NCBI GenBank assembly: GCA_902826615.1
Contig: CADEFN010000001.1
Span: 806,001-870,000, forward strand
Reading direction: 5' to 3'
DNA length: 64,000 nt
Source of the DNA: an uncultured Gemmatimonadota bacterium
GTDB taxonomy: Bacteria; Gemmatimonadota; Gemmatimonadetes; Gemmatimonadales; Gemmatimonadaceae
Program-made: the position numbers and the translations under genes
Shown: one piece after another, positions 1,419 through 8,076 of the stretch
How positions within the stretch are numbered: the first letter of the stretch is position 1
How the letters are laid out: each line of letters begins with the position of its first letter
Notes under the pieces: model-generated
Seen by the model: only the letters and a program-made list of their open reading frames with translations
What the model was told of the DNA's origin: nothing
Database searches by the model: none

Positions 1419-1710
1419 GGAGCGGCTCACAAAGCTGCCCTCGGCAGTGTCAAAGTCGGTGACAACTCGACGGCGGACCTGGAGGTGACTCGGGCGGGTC
1501 CCGGAGTGCTGCCTCCGGATCCCGTCCTCAGACTTCTGACACGGAACACCTTAGTGGGCTAGTCCAGAAGTATGTTGACAGGATTTGAGATAAGTCGCTG
1601 GGACCGAGAGTGTGTCGCGCCTAACGATAGGCCTGCGGTGCCGTTGACGTGGGCCGCATCGGATTGCCGCGCATCGCGTATGAAGGGGCTGCTCTCGTCG
1701 AAGTTCGTCG
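1419..1710. other. Intergenic left border of the island
   Basis: No convincing gene lies between the amidohydrolase stop and the end of the Abi gene. Small inverted repeats (GCTGCCCTCGGCAG near 1435; TGTCA/TGACA near 1448-1464) are not followed by a T-run. One copy of the CGTTAGGC motif lies at 1619-1626, the last exact copy until 12662. The change from the surrounding gene style to the accessory genes happens here, but I see no direct repeat, tRNA or integrase that would mark an attachment site. Confidence 0.4.
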
Positions 1711-2586
1711 CTACTTGTTTCCGGCTCCCTTGCGAGCAGCCCGGGCGGCCTCCTTCTCGGCCTTCTTCTTCGCGGCGGCTTCTAGGACTTGATCTATTCC
1801 ATCTACAAGACGCTTCCTCGCGACCTGCAGGGCGTCTTCGGAGTCGAGCTTGGAGACCGGCTCATAGAGGCGCGTGAGAAGCTGGGCATGTGCGGAGTTC
1901 AGCCATCGCAACGCCTGTAGGATGTCCGCGTAGCGCGCGCTTGGAGACGGGCTCTTGTCGGTTTTCGCCCAGATCGGTTCGTGGTGAAAGACGCGATTCC
2001 GAAAATGACGGAGGCCGTTGAACGTGGTTCTGATGGTCGTCATCATCTCCTCGTCTTTCGCCCCAGGAAAGACTTTTCCTCTGTGCGTTGGCCACAGGTA
2101 AATTCCGGACGTGCCGGGCTCGTCATAGGCGGTCTCAAGCATGCCGACCCAGAGCCCAAACGAGGTAGCGGCCACCAGATCATCGTGGGTGCGTCGCGCG
2201 TTCTGCGCAGGGTCTTTGCTCAGCACCTTCTCGAGCGCGCGATCCACCGTACCCCGGCCGCCGGGGTGGACGACAACCTCTCCGCTTGGGCGAATGTCTG
2301 GATGGTAGGTTCGGGTCAGCCAGGAACGAATGCCTCGGTATGCCGCCGGATTCTGAGAGACCGGGAAGAGGGGCTTCAAAACTGAGTCGATGCTGTTCCG
2401 TAGATCGATCTCGAGCACCTGAAGCGCCGGATAGGCTGCCTTGCAGAGGTCTATGTTCCAGTAATACCTTGCCAGAGAAAGACTTAGGTCGCCGCCCTCG
2501 GCCGCCATATAGGGGCCAAGCCGGCTGCTGCCGATAAGCGCTTCCAGTCTTCCGAGCTGGGAGACTTGCGTAGAAGTCAAAGACAT
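1711..2586 (-). CDS. Abi-like (AbiD/AbiF, Abi_2-type) HEPN protein
   Basis: A 291-residue, mostly helical protein that resembles the Abi_2 abortive-infection family. The N-terminal half carries the family-like helix ending IDLRNSID. The C-terminal half has FGLWVGMLE followed by GLRHFRNRVFHHEPIW at about residues 193-208. This contains R-x4-H, the catalytic motif of HEPN ribonucleases. Known: AbiD/AbiF proteins stop phage growth, and AbiF-type genes can be paired with a structured RNA antitoxin. Inferred: an RNA-cleaving toxin or defence effector. The tail is rich in Lys, Ala and Arg. The ATG at 2586 has no clear ribosome site. A structured intergenic region and the YfbU gene lie upstream on the same strand. 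Confidence 0.75.
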   Translation of the reverse strand: MSLTSTQVSQLGRLEALIGSSRLGPYMAAEGGDLSLSLARYYWNIDLCKAAYPALQVLEIDLRNSIDSVLKPLFPVSQNPAAYRGIRSWLTRTYHPDIRPSGEVVVHPGGRGTVDRALEKVLSKDPAQNARRTHDDLVAATSFGLWVGMLETAYDEPGTSGIYLWPTHRGKVFPGAKDEEMMTTIRTTFNGLRHFRNRVFHHEPIWAKTDKSPSPSARYADILQALRWLNSAHAQLLTRLYEPVSKLDSEDALQVARKRLVDGIDQVLEAAAKKKAEKEAARAARKGAGNK

Positions 2587-2628
2587 AGTACAGTTTCATT
2601 GCTGAGCCGATTCGTCGGCCCCGAAGTG

Positions 2629-2664
2629 CCCGCCAGCGCTATTCGTAGCCCTGGCGGGTTTTTT
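2629..2664 (+). terminator. Strong stem-loop with T-run upstream of the Abi gene (possible ncRNA or antisense-RNA terminator)
   Basis: Arms CCCGCCAG (2629-2636) and CTGGCGGG (2651-2658) pair perfectly and are followed by six T on the plus strand, the form of an intrinsic terminator. No plus-strand gene precedes it, so it could end an antisense or small RNA crossing the Abi start. Read on the minus strand it is a stem-loop in the leader of the Abi gene. Two further hairpins sit in the same gap: TCGCCT/AGGCGA at 2756-2770 and GCCGG/CCGGC at 2773-2790. Confidence 0.6.
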
Positions 2665-2803
2665 CTTTCTACAAGCTTACGCGCCGACCGAGATCGAGGC
2701 CCGTTTCCGAGGGGCGCGCCGCTGCGAGCAAGCGCCGCCACCGGCCCCGCCCAACTCGCCTTTGAGGCGACTGCCGGCACTAGCTCCGGCGATCCGGATA
2801 AAT

Positions 2804-3493
2804 CTAGGCTTTCAAGAGGTCGGCAATCTGTTGGGCGCTCAATTCGCCGCCGATCAACGAATTCTGCATCCCTCCGAATTGGGCGAGCATTCTCTCGTAG
2901 GTGTCGAGAGTCGGGATGTGCGCGTTCATCTCGCGACCCTTGAAGCGAGAGAATCGTTCCATCTTTTCCACAAGGAATCTGGCGATGCCGATGTGCTCCG
3001 CTTCGTCGTTGCCGTCGAATCCCATGAAATGTACCCTGCTGCCGAGAGGCGCCGCTTTCGTGGCAACGAGCTCTCTGTCCTTCTTCGACAGTGCCTCGTA
3101 TCCACGCTCCATGTGGTCCCACATCGCCAAGACGTTTAAGACGAAGCTGACGTTCTTCGGGTTATCTCGGTGACCGTGGAAGACGCCCGGAAGCTGCCAT
3201 CCCAGTGCCCAGTCGTGTCCACCGAAGATCACGTCCGACACCAAGTCCATATTTAGGTCGGCGTTCTTGATCTTCAGGTGCTGTCCAATGTCTCTTAGGG
3301 CCAGGAGCACCAATTTCTCGCCATCGCTTAGCGAGGGGGTCCGGTGCGCACCATGCGACAGGCCGATCTCCGCCAGGCGCCGCATGGCCTCCGCCCGCGA
3401 TGGGATCTTGTCTTGCCTCCCTCGCCACTCATCAACCCGCGCCAGCAGGTCTTCATCCACCCGCATTTCGAACCGCTCGTCCTTCTTCGCCAT
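2804..3493 (-). CDS. yfbU: YfbU family protein with ribbon-helix-helix N-terminus
   Basis: The central and C-terminal parts match the YfbU family: a MWDHMERGYEAL-like segment, then FDGNDEAEHIGIARFLVEKM, RFKGRE and a YERMLAQF helix. The first 35 residues (ERFEMRVDEDLLARVDEWR) look like a ribbon-helix-helix DNA-binding segment, followed by an SRAEAMRRL helix. I placed the start at the ATG at 3493 (229 aa) because GGAGG precedes it by a few bases; an upstream in-frame start at 3523 lacks this. YfbU proteins are poorly understood; E. coli YfbU has been linked to cell death. In front of the gene lie TACGTA-type repeats that could be its own operator. It may be co-transcribed with the Abi gene 217 bp downstream. 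Confidence 0.85.
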   Translation of the reverse strand: MAKKDERFEMRVDEDLLARVDEWRGRQDKIPSRAEAMRRLAEIGLSHGAHRTPSLSDGEKLVLLALRDIGQHLKIKNADLNMDLVSDVIFGGHDWALGWQLPGVFHGHRDNPKNVSFVLNVLAMWDHMERGYEALSKKDRELVATKAAPLGSRVHFMGFDGNDEAEHIGIARFLVEKMERFSRFKGREMNAHIPTLDTYERMLAQFGGMQNSLIGGELSAQQIADLLKA

Positions 3494-3508
3494 ACTGCCT
3501 CCGTGTCT

Positions 3509-3570
3509 CGTACGTAGCCGCAACGTCGATTACGTATATCTGGCGGTTTATACGGAAGGATACACGTACA
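3509..3570. promoter_or_regulatory. AT-rich repeat cluster, possible operator/promoter of the YfbU gene
   Basis: TACGTA occurs at 3511-3516 and again exactly 20 bp away at 3531-3536. An inverted repeat CGTATA (3533-3538) / TATACG (3549-3554) has a 10-bp spacer, and TACACGTACA follows at 3561-3570. The spacing is near helical periodicity and fits binding of a ribbon-helix-helix dimer array. Autoregulation by the YfbU protein is inference. Confidence 0.45.
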
Positions 3571-3942
3571 ATTACTTCCGTGCAATCGTTGACCGTGGAT
3601 CGCTGGTTGCCGTACTTAGCGCGGGTGGTGGCGACATAGCTCACCGGAGGCCCCGCCCCCGGGCAAACCCCTCCGCCACCCACAGTTCCCACCCAACTTC
3701 GGCCCTCCGCACGGTCGGCGTTTCCCTCGCCCCAGCCTCCTCCGCGGCACTCGCTCATGCAGCGATGGCCTTTACAATCACCAATCCGTTCGTAAGCTGT
3801 TCCCCCTCAAGGACTTGGCGCATCCCGCCCCACCCGGCGGCGTGGATGGCTAGCCAATGCGATCCTAACGTGAAGCCGGACGTACTTTCCGTCAAAGTCA
3901 TTGGCGAACCTGACATTATCGATCAATCGCGGTCCTTGTGAA
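3571..3942. other. Intergenic region without a supported gene
   Basis: This gap separates the divergent YfbU gene and the four-gene operon. A 58-codon frame (about 3768-3941) is open but has no ribosome site or family resemblance. Part of the stretch (3640-3700) is C-rich. No RNA gene, repeat array or attachment site is evident. Confidence 0.4.
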
Positions 3943-3997: not shown

Positions 3998-4609
3998 ATG
4001 CCAGACGGGGACGTCATTTCGAGTAGGGTACAGCACAGATGGCGGTCGACCTTGTCGCGCCTCCGGGGTGGCGCGACGCCACTTGAAGTCGCCGTTCACG
4101 CGAACCGAGCGCTATCGGACACGTTTAGGCGCTACGGCGGAATCGGGGGATCGGCTGCGTACGGCGCAATCATCGAGGCGCGCGGTCGTGGGGAACTGTC
4201 ACCTTCGGAAACTCGCCAGCGAGCCCACCGGATCTACAGGTCACAGGAGCAAACCGAGTTTGCCCTACTCGCCTTTCGCGCCGTCAAGCGACTTCTGGCA
4301 TCGCCGCCCAAAAGCGCAGCTGCACTTGAACCGGGGACGATTACTGTCGCCCAGGCCGTCTGCGCTGAACTGTTGAACGCAGAGCTTTTTGAGCGAGTGC
4401 GCCCTCACTTAGTCGGGGATGTTTTCCCCGATCACGAGGCGTTCGACCGCTTCGTGGAGCACTGCCATGCCTTGCTGACTGAGCCTATCGCACACATCAG
4501 CGCGAGCCTGACGCTCCACCCGACGGCTACCGGTCTCCGAGCTGCTCCAACTAGGAGAAGAAAGCGTCGTCAAGCCACGGCGACCATTCTCGATCAGTCG
4601 ATTCTATGA
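3998..4609 (+). CDS. Unknown helical protein, first gene of QueC-like/ImmA-IrrE/PIN operon
   Basis: A 203-residue protein I do not recognise. Its middle contains YGGIGGSAAYG (about residues 46-56), then several amphipathic helices. The tail is strongly basic (RRRKRR) and ends ATILDQSIL. There is no signal peptide, membrane segment or known catalytic motif. It overlaps the QueC-like gene by four bases (ATGA), so the two are probably co-translated and act together. In the Qat anti-phage system the QueC-like protein QatC has an unknown-function partner, QatB. This protein could play that role, but I see no clear sequence match to QatB. Its N-terminus (MPDG) is not the Met-Gly expected of the known deazaguanylated partners. 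Confidence 0.7.
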   Translation: MPDGDVISSRVQHRWRSTLSRLRGGATPLEVAVHANRALSDTFRRYGGIGGSAAYGAIIEARGRGELSPSETRQRAHRIYRSQEQTEFALLAFRAVKRLLASPPKSAAALEPGTITVAQAVCAELLNAELFERVRPHLVGDVFPDHEAFDRFVEHCHALLTEPIAHISASLTLHPTATGLRAAPTRRRKRRQATATILDQSIL

Positions 4610-6237
4610 GAGCCACTCGGCTTGACCCCTCTCTGGTCAAGAATGGACAGTCTCACGCCTCTGGCGGAAGACGACAGAGACGCGCACCCGCTTGTCCCGC
4701 GAGCTACGACGTCGTGTTCTCGGATCAAGGCGAAGTACGTTTCCGCGCGGGCGGGGCGACTGCTGGAATAACGAGCCGCACGTACGTCAACGACCTTCCG
4801 CTTGCCGAAGCATTCGGCGATGTAGTTCCGCCCCACTGCGCGGATCTAATTGACGTCGCGGTCGCCGTATATGTGGCAGATCGTGTTTGTCGACGGCATC
4901 CGCATAAAGCACCGCGTACCTCCGGGCTCTGGCAACGGCGCATACACGTGGAACTGCCATTGCGCGAGCCCGAGCGTTGGAGCCGCGACGCACTCGGCGC
5001 CACACTCGCTGATCTTCTCGGTGACCTTACCGACGACGTGTGGTCGTTTACGTTCGTCCTTCGTCGCGGAGATGCAGCGCGCCAATCAGAGTCGCAGCGA
5101 AGCCTGTTCCTTGACATGCCTCCTCCGCCCGCATCCGCAGCACTATTCAGCGGCGGCCTCGACTCACTCGCCGGCCTAGTCGCCCGTCTCGCTGAACGGC
5201 CGACAGAGACTCTAGTGCTGTTTTGCGGACGCACGAACAGGCGCATCGGCGTACCGCAGCGAGAGTTGTTGAATCTTGTAACGCGAGAATTCGGCCAGCG
5301 TGTGCGCCCTGTTGCCGTTGGCTTCGGCCTCAGCGGACGCCGGAGGCGTGCGTTCGACCATGAGGAGACGAGTCAGCGCACGCGCGGCTTCGTCTTTCAG
5401 GCTTTCGGAGCGGTAGCCGCGAAGATGGCTGGCCTTGATCGTCTCGACGTATTCGAGAACGGAGTTGGAGCGATCAACCTTCCCTACACTGACGCACAGC
5501 TTGGGAGTCAGTCGACGCGCGCAACGCACCCCGTGACGTTGCGCCGTATGTCAGCGCTACTTAGCGGAGTGTTCCGCGCGCCGTTCACTGTTTCGTTGCC
5601 ATTCGCCCTGATCACCAAGGGAGAGCTTTGCGACAGTCTCCGTGATGCTGGGCTCGGGGCCTTGGCTCGCCGGAGTGTGTCGTGCGACGGCTACCCGCAG
5701 CGTAACAGCAAGGCAGATCAATGCGGGGTGTGCCCGTCATGCGTGCTCCGGCGCCAGTCACTTCACCATGCGGGTCTTATCGATGAAGACCCTAAGTCTC
5801 TCTACGTTCACGACGTCTACGACGCCTCTGCGCCGGATGCGTTCGCGCGCCGCTTCTCGCTCCGCGCGATGGGCGGCCAGGTACACCACCTCCGCCGCGC
5901 CCTCAACTCGGCCCGCCCTTGGGAGGCGTTGACGATCATCTATCCAGACCTTGAAGAGGCCGCGGAGGCACTGGTTGACGCAGGTCGTGGGGACGAGGTC
6001 CGCGATGCACTTGTCGCACTGTATCGCCGCTACTGCGATGAGTGGGGTGCATTCGCAGCGAGCACCAATGGGCCGTGCGATGTGGGGCCAGATGGCGCGT
6101 TGGTCCCTGAGATAGGTGCGAGGTCATCGCGATCCTCCCGCGTGATGGCACCGGGCGTACCGACCGTTACCGCACGTCTCATCCCGGGACCGCGAACTCG
6201 GTGGTATGCGCTCGATGTCGGAGGCCCTCATGGGTGA
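4606..6237 (+). CDS. QueC-like (QatC/Cap9-type) nucleotide alpha-hydrolase enzyme
   Basis: A 543-residue protein with a QueC-type core. The ATP-binding PP-loop SGGLDS is at residues 182-187, and four cysteines (C360, C373, C376, C379; pattern C-x12-C-x2-C-x2-C) match the QueC zinc site. Classical QueC makes preQ0 and has about 230 residues. This one has about 180 extra residues in front and about 160 behind, like the defence-linked QatC and Cap9 proteins. Known: QueC converts 7-carboxy-7-deazaguanine to preQ0, and defence QueC-like enzymes have been reported to attach a deazaguanine to partner proteins. No other queuosine gene is nearby, so a defence or protein-modification role is more likely than tRNA modification. 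It overlaps both neighbouring genes. Confidence 0.85.
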   Translation: MRATRLDPSLVKNGQSHASGGRRQRRAPACPASYDVVFSDQGEVRFRAGGATAGITSRTYVNDLPLAEAFGDVVPPHCADLIDVAVAVYVADRVCRRHPHKAPRTSGLWQRRIHVELPLREPERWSRDALGATLADLLGDLTDDVWSFTFVLRRGDAARQSESQRSLFLDMPPPPASAALFSGGLDSLAGLVARLAERPTETLVLFCGRTNRRIGVPQRELLNLVTREFGQRVRPVAVGFGLSGRRRRAFDHEETSQRTRGFVFQAFGAVAAKMAGLDRLDVFENGVGAINLPYTDAQLGSQSTRATHPVTLRRMSALLSGVFRAPFTVSLPFALITKGELCDSLRDAGLGALARRSVSCDGYPQRNSKADQCGVCPSCVLRRQSLHHAGLIDEDPKSLYVHDVYDASAPDAFARRFSLRAMGGQVHHLRRALNSARPWEALTIIYPDLEEAAEALVDAGRGDEVRDALVALYRRYCDEWGAFAASTNGPCDVGPDGALVPEIGARSSRSSRVMAPGVPTVTARLIPGPRTRWYALDVGGPHG

Positions 6238-7477
6238 TGATCAACTCATGTCCGCTGACCCCCGCCGTCTCGGTGAACGCCTGCAGCAAGCGCGCAAGGC
6301 ACGGCACAAAACGCAGCAAGAGGTTGCCGAGTACTTAGGCGTAGCTCGAACGACGGTGGTCGCGTTCGAGAAAGGGGAACGGCGGGTGCAACCGACGGAG
6401 CTTGTACGGCTGGCGAGTCTATACGGTCGCCAGGTTGGCGAACTGCTTAGGGCTGCTGAGCCCACGGCGCCCTTTGCGGTGCAACTTCGCGCCACGCTCG
6501 CACCGGACGAGCCTATCGCGACCGAGCTTGATTCGGCAACGTGGGAGTTCCAGAAGCTCTGCGAAGACTACGCGGAGTTAGAGCAGCTAGCGGACTCCCC
6601 GTTGCCGAGACACTACCCGCCCGTGCGTCAGGTTGGAGGAACCGACGTCGAGCGCGCCGCCGAAGACCTCGCGACAAGCGAGCGAACTCGGCTTGGCTTG
6701 GGCGATGGCCCCATTCTCAATCTGCGAGAGTTACTGGAGCACGAGGTAGGCTTACGCATCTTCTACCTCGACTTACCATCGGCGATATCCGGGTTGTTCT
6801 CTTTCGATGAAACGCTTGGTGGGTGCGTCGCGGTCAATCGGCGCCATCCCGAAGAGCGGCGGCGTAACTCGCTCCTTCACGAGTACCTGCATTTCCTAAC
6901 GACGCGCTACAAGTCCGAGGTAACCGTTCATTCTCGATATCGCCGCCGGCCGGAGCACGAGCGCCTCGCGAACGCGTTCGCGCCGGCGTTTCTCATGCCG
7001 AACGCGGGCCTCAGCCGCCGCTTCAACGAGACGAAGCGGCGACGCGGCGACTTCACTATCGCAGATCTGTGCACGCTCGCTGCGTACTACTTCGTGTCCG
7101 TCGAGAGCCTCACGCGGCGACTAGAGGAGCTCCGTCTTGTACCCTTAGGCACGTGGGACAAGGTTCGAGACGCCGGCCTTCGCGTTCGCGATGCGCGCAC
7201 GCTACTGAACCTTCCGTCGCCGAAGGTTCCGGAGGACTTGCTCACCCCCCGCTACGTGTTCCTCGCGGTCAGCGCATTCCAGGCCGGGGAGGTCAGCGAG
7301 GGGCAGCTTGCGCGATATCTCCGACTTGATCGACTCGAGGCGCGGCGCGTTGCGGTCACGGTCGCTAGCGACCTTGGAGGAGATGAACCGCTCACTATCG
7401 ATCGGTCTGTGTCTACGGCTTCTCGCGCGGCTCCTCCGCTGCCGGATCGTCCCGCGGAAGAGGACTGGCTGCCGTGA
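6230..7477 (+). CDS. XRE-family regulator fused to ImmA/IrrE metallopeptidase
   Basis: A 415-residue protein. Residues about 10-65 form an XRE helix-turn-helix (LGERLQQARKARHKTQQEVA, then VARTTVVAFEKGER). A C-terminal half follows with the ImmA/IrrE zinc-protease motif HEYLH at 217-221 and the third ligand E244 in HERLANAF, ending in the typical FLMP. I chose the ATG at 6230 because GGAGG lies five bases ahead; it overlaps the QueC-like stop by eight bases. Known: such proteins sense a signal and cleave or release repressors, and several act as antitoxins next to PIN toxins. Here it probably controls the operon and neutralises the PIN protein. The last ~110 residues extend past the peptidase. 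Confidence 0.9.
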   Translation: MGDDQLMSADPRRLGERLQQARKARHKTQQEVAEYLGVARTTVVAFEKGERRVQPTELVRLASLYGRQVGELLRAAEPTAPFAVQLRATLAPDEPIATELDSATWEFQKLCEDYAELEQLADSPLPRHYPPVRQVGGTDVERAAEDLATSERTRLGLGDGPILNLRELLEHEVGLRIFYLDLPSAISGLFSFDETLGGCVAVNRRHPEERRRNSLLHEYLHFLTTRYKSEVTVHSRYRRRPEHERLANAFAPAFLMPNAGLSRRFNETKRRRGDFTIADLCTLAAYYFVSVESLTRRLEELRLVPLGTWDKVRDAGLRVRDARTLLNLPSPKVPEDLLTPRYVFLAVSAFQAGEVSEGQLARYLRLDRLEARRVAVTVASDLGGDEPLTIDRSVSTASRAAPPLPDRPAEEDWLP

Positions 7478-8076
7478 CGGGGGCGGACGGAGGGACGTCC
7501 GTCGGCACGACGCCTGGTGGCGGCCGTCGGATCATCCTCGACGCTTGCGCCCTTCTCAACTTGTATGCGAGTGGGCGGATTGCCGACGTCCTCAATACGA
7601 TGCCGCGCCCTTCCGCTGTCGCCGAGTACATTCGGGACCAAGAGGCTCTATGGGTCGGCCGATACAAGACCGGGCCCGAGGCCGACTACGAGCAAGTGAA
7701 TATCCGTCCTCTCGTCGCCTCAGGACTGATCGAGGTCTTGGCGCTCTCTGGTGATGAGGAGCTGGCTAACTTTCTCGCCCTCGCCTCGTCCTCTCGGATA
7801 GACGACGGTGAGGCAATCTGCGGCGCTATGGCTCAAGTGCGCGATCTGGTGGTCGTGACTGACGACAAAGCCGCGTTAAGGGTTTTCGGCTGCCATTCGC
7901 ATTCTATCCAGACCTGCAGCACGGCGAGTCTAATGAAACACTGGGCGGAGTGCATGGCAGTCGACGCAAAGACTCTGCAGAGCGCATTGCTGGACATCCG
8001 CGAGCGAGCGTGTTTCGAACCTGGCCCGCGCGATCCCCTACGCGGATGGTGGAAGGCAGCGATGAACTCCGCGTGA
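7474..8076 (+). CDS. PIN-domain ribonuclease (probable toxin)
   Basis: A 200-residue protein starting at a GTG that overlaps the preceding stop (GTGA). It has the PIN acidic constellation: D23 in IILDACALLNLYAS, D110/D111 and E113 in RIDDGEA, and D130/D131 in VVTDDKAA. The first ~17 residues are Gly/Thr-rich and probably disordered. Known: PIN proteins are metal-dependent RNases, and a PIN gene immediately after an XRE-ImmA/IrrE gene is a predicted toxin-antitoxin arrangement. Inferred: the effector of the four-gene system, restrained by the ImmA/IrrE protein and perhaps triggered via the QueC-like enzyme. No terminator is visible downstream. Confidence 0.85.
   Translation: MTGADGGTSVGTTPGGGRRIILDACALLNLYASGRIADVLNTMPRPSAVAEYIRDQEALWVGRYKTGPEADYEQVNIRPLVASGLIEVLALSGDEELANFLALASSSRIDDGEAICGAMAQVRDLVVVTDDKAALRVFGCHSHSIQTCSTASLMKHWAECMAVDAKTLQSALLDIRERACFEPGPRDPLRGWWKAAMNSA

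Follow-up and report, generated by a model that had tools for sequence, protein, structure and literature searches.

A predicted divergent small RNA beside an AbiF-like HEPN gene of a Gemmatimonadota bacterium as a candidate RNA antitoxin

Introduction

Cas13 has been proposed to descend from AbiF-type HEPN RNases, whose control by small RNAs was discovered only recently. The occurrence of a small RNA next to AbiF is itself not new, and the related AbiF precedents for an antitoxin RNA bound to a HEPN dimer are RCd22 (of C. difficile) and the PbAbiF-AbiFr pair (8VZ6); RCd22 neutralises a related AbiF through direct binding (PMC12373285). The abiF RNA of these systems (RF03085) lies on the same strand as the abiF gene and is co-transcribed with it. 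RNase toxins are also held by adjacent small RNAs in the type III toxin-antitoxin (TA) systems ToxIN, CptIN, and TenpIN, where the antitoxin RNA is a tandem-repeat pseudoknot encoded on the strand of the toxin and the toxin fold is unrelated to HEPN. In the type I system SymE/SymR, an opposite-strand RNA, SymR, covers the start of the toxin mRNA. The accessible part of the description of PD-T4-5, an Abi defence gene of E. coli plasmids, presents it as a plasmid-borne, distant AbiF/D relative with TA-like abortive defence and does not mention an RNA partner (PMC9519451).

Here, we analyzed an Abi gene and its upstream region in a stretch of 64,000 nucleotides, referred to as the window, from an uncultured Gemmatimonadota bacterium. 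The locus resembles the AbiF/abiF RNA systems in the HEPN RNase fold of its protein and in a small structured RNA immediately upstream that comprises two hairpins and a terminator near abi. However, the predicted RNA is divergent from the gene, is served by a promoter and a terminator of its own, and fails to match RF03085 in sequence. With PD-T4-5 the locus has the protein family in common. The RNase toxin held by an adjacent small RNA, a likeness to type III systems that is proposed here by analogy, would be combined with a HEPN protein and with an RNA that is free of tandem repeats and lies on the opposite strand. As in SymE/SymR, an opposite-strand RNA is found at the 5' end of the putative toxin gene, but it is predicted to start upstream of the ATG and to head away from the gene.

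The Abi protein

The Abi gene (1711-2586, minus strand) encodes a 291-aa protein similar to PD-T4-5. Residues 40-212 matched the PADLOC PD-T4-5 model PDLC04038 with an E-value of 1.6e-25, while the Pfam Abi_2 model (PF07751) stayed below its gathering score (14.9 vs 25.6 bits), a score that was exceeded by the relatives L013, L020, L022, and L026. The HEPN catalytic motif R-N-R-V-F-H is located at 1984-2001 (minus strand, residues 196-201), and the sequence RNRVFHHEPIW was invariant in all 21 aligned homologs. An AlphaFold2 model with a pLDDT of 88.5 aligned with 8VZ6, the structure of PbAbiF bound to its ncRNA, at a Z of 10.7 over 216 residues, which by itself is modest for helical proteins, and the next row reached a Z of 5.0. 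Foldseek with the same model ranked 8VZ6 first, but at an E-value of 0.09. Among solved structures, a single-sequence search with Abi gave no AbiF match, and a profile search placed 8vz6 third (E 0.034). Since the drop in Z to the next row, the profile match to the 8VZ6 chain, and the HEPN motif combine, we regard the assignment to the AbiF fold as sound. The protein is presumed to be an AbiD/F-like HEPN RNase and a putative toxin.

The predicted small RNA

The Abi gene is separated from an upstream gene, which is likewise on the minus strand and encodes a YfbU-domain protein with an N-terminal extension (2804-3493), by a gap at 2587-2803. The first-pass annotation of this DNA had described the 217-bp gap as holding three hairpins (2629-2658, 2756-2770, and 2773-2790) and had proposed a structured RNA next to an AbiF-like HEPN gene. 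All three hairpins were found again at these positions. As a whole, the gap folded no better than shuffles on both strands (z -1.64), whereas the 64-nt stretch at 2602-2665 folded better than its shuffles, with z of -4.2 on the plus and -6.5 on the minus strand and no shuffle as good. The proposal of a structured RNA thus held for the abi-proximal 64 nt and failed for the rest of the gap. The hairpins at 2756-2770 and 2773-2790 were dropped as unsupported, as they sit outside the conserved stretch of the gap.

Within the abi-proximal stretch, a small RNA unit of approximately 63 nt (about 2601-2664, plus strand) is very probably encoded divergently from abi and equipped with a promoter and a terminator of its own; its start is predicted from the promoter and its end from the U-tract. 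The predicted promoter TTGCGT-17-TACAGT spans 2566-2594 and overlaps the start of abi. Its -35 box TTGCGT (2566-2571) lies within the coding sequence of abi, which runs on the opposite strand, and is part of the top-scoring plus-strand site of the whole region, and its -10 box TACAGT (2589-2594), at a spacer of 17, ends 11 nt before the first stem. The first hairpin, GCCGA-UUCG-UCGGC, occupies 2606-2619. It is followed by a terminator hairpin, CCCGCCAG-c-GCUA-UUCG-UAGC-c-CUGGCGGG (2629-2658), and a U-tract at 2659-2664 (TTTTTT). No tandem repeat was seen in the 64-nt unit, which consists of two unequal hairpins.

The hairpin at 2629-2658 with its T6 is a proper plus-strand terminator, as had been claimed, and the puzzle that no plus-strand protein gene precedes it is explained by the second hairpin at 2606-2619 and the promoter. 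Both of these elements, the conserved hairpin and the same-strand promoter inside the 5' end of Abi, had been overlooked. The earlier suggestion of a sense ncRNA or an antisense RNA over the Abi start was not borne out. The predicted plus-strand RNA starts upstream of the abi ATG, at a distance of approximately 15 nt, and leads away from the gene, which makes it neither a leader in the sense direction nor an antisense transcript covering the start of Abi; the only overlap with the abi start is the promoter of the predicted RNA.

Conservation in a second genus

The search covered 288 genomes from the order and 395 from the phylum and turned up one close Abi relative, L003, with 62% protein identity, in a different genus of the same family. 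Upstream of its abi gene, L003 carries CTGAGCCGATTCGTCGGCCCC..CCCGCCAG.GCTATTCGTAGCCCTGGCGG followed by a T-tract, matching the window. The RNA element is identical at 58 of 64 positions (91%), compared to 63% for the abi coding sequence as a whole and 42% for its third codon positions. Past the T-tract, the similarity dropped to the level of shuffles, and the sequences are unrelated. The first hairpin is identical in sequence, the terminator hairpin is kept, and the U-tract reads TTTTTTTT in L003. The first-pass annotation was to be judged by whether its hairpins are conserved next to homologous Abi genes, and this was found for 2629-2658 and not for the other two. In the computed minimum-energy fold of L003, an alternative pairing of the segment corresponding to 2606-2619 was preferred.

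The promoter is also present in L003 at the equivalent place (TTGCGC-17-TATTCT), with the -10 box again ending 11 nt before the first stem. Scored at fixed geometry against dinucleotide shuffles, it reached p=0.005 in L003 and p=0.04 in the window; taken alone, the latter is weak by consensus, as the sigma70-like matrix follows the E. coli consensus and this phylum may use different promoters.

A covariance model of the window and L003 element, termed R1, was searched against 179 and 394 genomes with the family and the class sampled. It returned the window and L003 at E-values of about 1e-24 to 1e-26, both beside Abi. The remaining matches were weaker (E 1.7e-6 and above), and those inspected had no nearby Abi and looked like ordinary terminators. 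Two sequences of the exact window type are thereby known, the window itself and L003. In viral contigs, the 16-mer of hairpin 1 gave 10 chance-like matches, none of them with Abi, and neither the second sequence pattern nor Abi relatives of the window and L003 were found. No Abi relatives above 60% identity were found in phages and plasmids, and the RNA element was not found in plasmids.

An Rfam search of the window, the region, and the relatives gave nothing at gathering score. The abiF RNA model RF03085, which the first-pass annotation had pointed to as a check on both strands, gave nothing at gathering score over the 64-kb window, and within 1500-3600 it stayed without a match even up to E 10. 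The same model recovered the known RNA in phage phiC2 on the abiF strand.

Structured elements beside distant Abi relatives

A structured element upstream of abi was also found for Abi relatives of 24-36% identity in many phyla. From one large group, 25 element copies were aligned (alignment A5). Their common structure comprises an outer and an inner stem, a three-pair NUC/GAN helix adjacent to a short bulge, and internal loops in which TCRTCAC and GGAGAGGA (read in the sense of abi) are conserved. A model built from 11 of these copies, termed R2, recovered 27 loci at E <= 0.01. Covariation of the R2-type RNA was 0.293, compared to 0.06-0.12 for slid partners, and 45 double-change cells stood against 17.6 in shuffles; these counts lean towards structure because the alignment was fitted by the model and many rows are closely related. 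The G-U asymmetry was tried as a strand test for the wider family and was discarded as uninformative at 7 vs 5 cells. On 19 R2-type loci, Rfam gave nothing at gathering score, and in two of them not even a near match was obtained.

With filters off, the best score of R2 in the window was 4.4 bits, which is not a match, so that by sequence the window RNA falls outside R2. Its tie to the distant relatives consists instead of position and promoter geometry: the window and L003 show the arrangement of the R2 family (divergent, gap 11, spacer 17), so that the RNAs share position and promoter spacing, and the window RNA has its own terminator. The simplest view, in our opinion, would be that the RNA varies among the Abi sub-branches, as might be expected for a partner co-evolving with the protein. 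Other structured elements without an R2 match lie upstream of abi in L004, L006, L017, L022, L023, L084, L086, and L114-L133, where the first hairpin is often preceded by ACGA/ACGAA; these are probably further RNA types with the same arrangement. Hairpins and promoter-like sites upstream of abi were likewise seen in the enterobacterial plasmid relatives. Three such plasmid loci (L117, L118, and L122) carry a palindrome-like sequence, CTGACG-N4-CGTCAAG or CACGTCAAG, about 30-65 nt before the ATG, which overlaps the -35 box of the RNA promoter and may be an operator.

Across 385 genomes of the phylum, R2 gave 39 matches at E <= 0.01. Thirty of these loci were read, and an Abi ORF in the expected orientation directly adjoined the RNA in 19, while it was absent in 11 (L139, L141, L142, L144, L146, L147, L148, L151, L155, L159, and L165). 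These 11 copies have no Abi within 1.5 kb, and their motif and hairpin are intact (E about 1e-5 to 1e-11), with a clear promoter in only 2-4 of them and a degraded or absent one in the others. They could be orphan RNA antitoxins or remnants after the loss of abi, and since they may be remnants, they were left out as evidence of an independent function. Broken-looking Abi genes beside an intact RNA motif were observed as well: Abi in L077 (1501-2154) contains an in-frame TGA, and in L009/L012, which belong to the same contig, the gene is in two pieces in different frames.

Proposed role of the RNA and alternative explanations

We hold it moderately probable that, taken as a whole, the plus-strand RNA is a divergently encoded RNA antitoxin of the AbiF-like HEPN RNase. 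Sequence comparison supports the existence of the RNA unit well and also speaks for its strand and for its association with abi, while the antitoxin role is one that we infer by analogy. The RNA would be made constantly from its own promoter, fold into two UUCG hairpins, and bind the dimeric AbiF-like HEPN RNase, thereby holding it inactive. Upon phage shut-off or breakdown of host RNA, the short RNA would be depleted and the RNase set free, and the infection would abort. For binding, neutralization, and release upon infection, this scheme draws on AbiF-RCd22 and PbAbiF-AbiFr, and each of these steps may apply here.

Alternatively, the RNA could act in a type I-like manner, pairing with the 5' leader of the abi mRNA and blocking translation or transcription while binding no protein. 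Such pairing is conceivable in the window, where the predicted RNA start is only 15 nt from the abi ATG. Any promoter upstream of 2665 would yield an abi transcript containing the full complement of the RNA, and the complementary hairpins could interact through loop-loop pairing of UUCG with CGAA. Against this stands the observation that in several enterobacterial plasmid relatives, a separate abi promoter is situated in the interval from the RNA promoter to the ATG (for example, CTGACG-15-TATAAT in L122; TATACT in L117, L123, L127, and L133). With the abi promoter downstream of the RNA, RNA and mRNA would not overlap in these relatives, which favors protein binding over antisense pairing, and it is the protein that the known AbiF RNAs bind (PMC12373285). 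We consider antisense control unlikely.

The strand itself was also open to question, as the functional RNA could be on the minus strand, as a structured abiF-like leader co-transcribed with abi in the manner of RCd22. The known abiF RNAs share the strand of abiF, and the minus strand of the 64-nt stretch folds slightly better (-36 vs -31.5 kcal/mol; z -6.5 and -5.9), with G-U pairs gained in both hairpins. However, neither a promoter before the element nor a terminator after it was present on the minus strand, whereas both lie on the plus strand, and the RNA was placed there on these grounds; a sense-strand promoter upstream of the element was also missing in the relatives, and the abiF model RF03085, as reported above, had no match.

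The distant relatives provided a broader view of the strand. For 34 motif loci, the best sigma70-like site was scored at a fixed distance from the motif, with the mirrored sense position serving as a control. On the strand opposite to abi, the mean promoter score was 6.9, compared to 0.66 for shuffles, with loci L074-L083 forming a same-class cluster within the scan that is not independent; the mirrored sense control gave -1.9 vs -1.3 for shuffles, i.e., no promoter. The signal was equally clear in unrelated loci from Cyanobacteria, Legionella, Chloroflexi, Geobacter, and Planktothrix. The opposite-strand sites nearly always read TTGnnn-17-TAnnnT or GATnnT, with the -10 box usually ending 11-12 nt before the stem. 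When the whole upstream region of 59 loci was scanned, the mean z was 1.42 on the opposite and 0.20 on the sense strand, and with regard to a hairpin plus T-rich run, the RNA strand outscored the sense strand in nearly all scorable loci. Promoter and terminator thus stand at fixed distances on the opposite strand, and the predicted promoter geometry decides the strand of the RNA as opposite to abi, leaving the minus-strand leader improbable.

It is very improbable that the element acts only as a terminator, shielding the divergent region from antisense transcripts that leave abi, with no functional RNA. A hairpin with T6 is indeed a standard terminator and many similar ones exist in other genomes of the family, but here the entire 64-nt unit is conserved, including the first hairpin and the linkers, a promoter precedes it, and the elaborate covarying fold of the wider family is unneeded for termination.

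Novelty and implications

Divergent transcription from an own promoter and these RNA sequences were found neither in Rfam nor in the part of the literature covered by our search. A wider proposition, for which we see the case as evenly balanced, is that the PD-T4-5-like Abi/HEPN branch is paired across phyla with divergent RNA antitoxins that have their own promoters and terminators and differ by sub-branch, the window and L003 being a distinct two-hairpin type. Beside the abiF RNA, this would constitute a second, independently organised class of AbiF-type TA RNA that is absent from Rfam and bears on the origin of RNA control in the Cas13 lineage. If this is true, there are two or more genetic arrangements for the RNA control of AbiF-type RNases, and an RNA partner may have escaped annotation for many entries named "Abi family protein", including those of enterobacterial plasmids. 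Defence tests of PD-T4-5 that omitted the upstream RNA, or unknowingly included it, would then need to be re-examined. The spacing from promoter to stem offers a simple handle for finding such RNAs.

Neighboring genes

The YfbU gene was considered as a member of the RNA-Abi unit and rejected, as L003 has no YfbU-like ORF at the equivalent place; judging from this comparison, YfbU is probably outside the unit. Near the Abi gene, the window also contains a run of four genes on the plus strand (3998-8076), encoding an unknown protein, a QatC-like QueC homolog (PADLOC E 4.4e-50, under the NCBIfam cutoff), an HTH and M78 peptidase protein (IrrE-like), and an unknown 200-aa protein. The four genes resemble an atypical defence cluster of the Qat-like or ImmA/IrrE kind adjoining the Abi gene.
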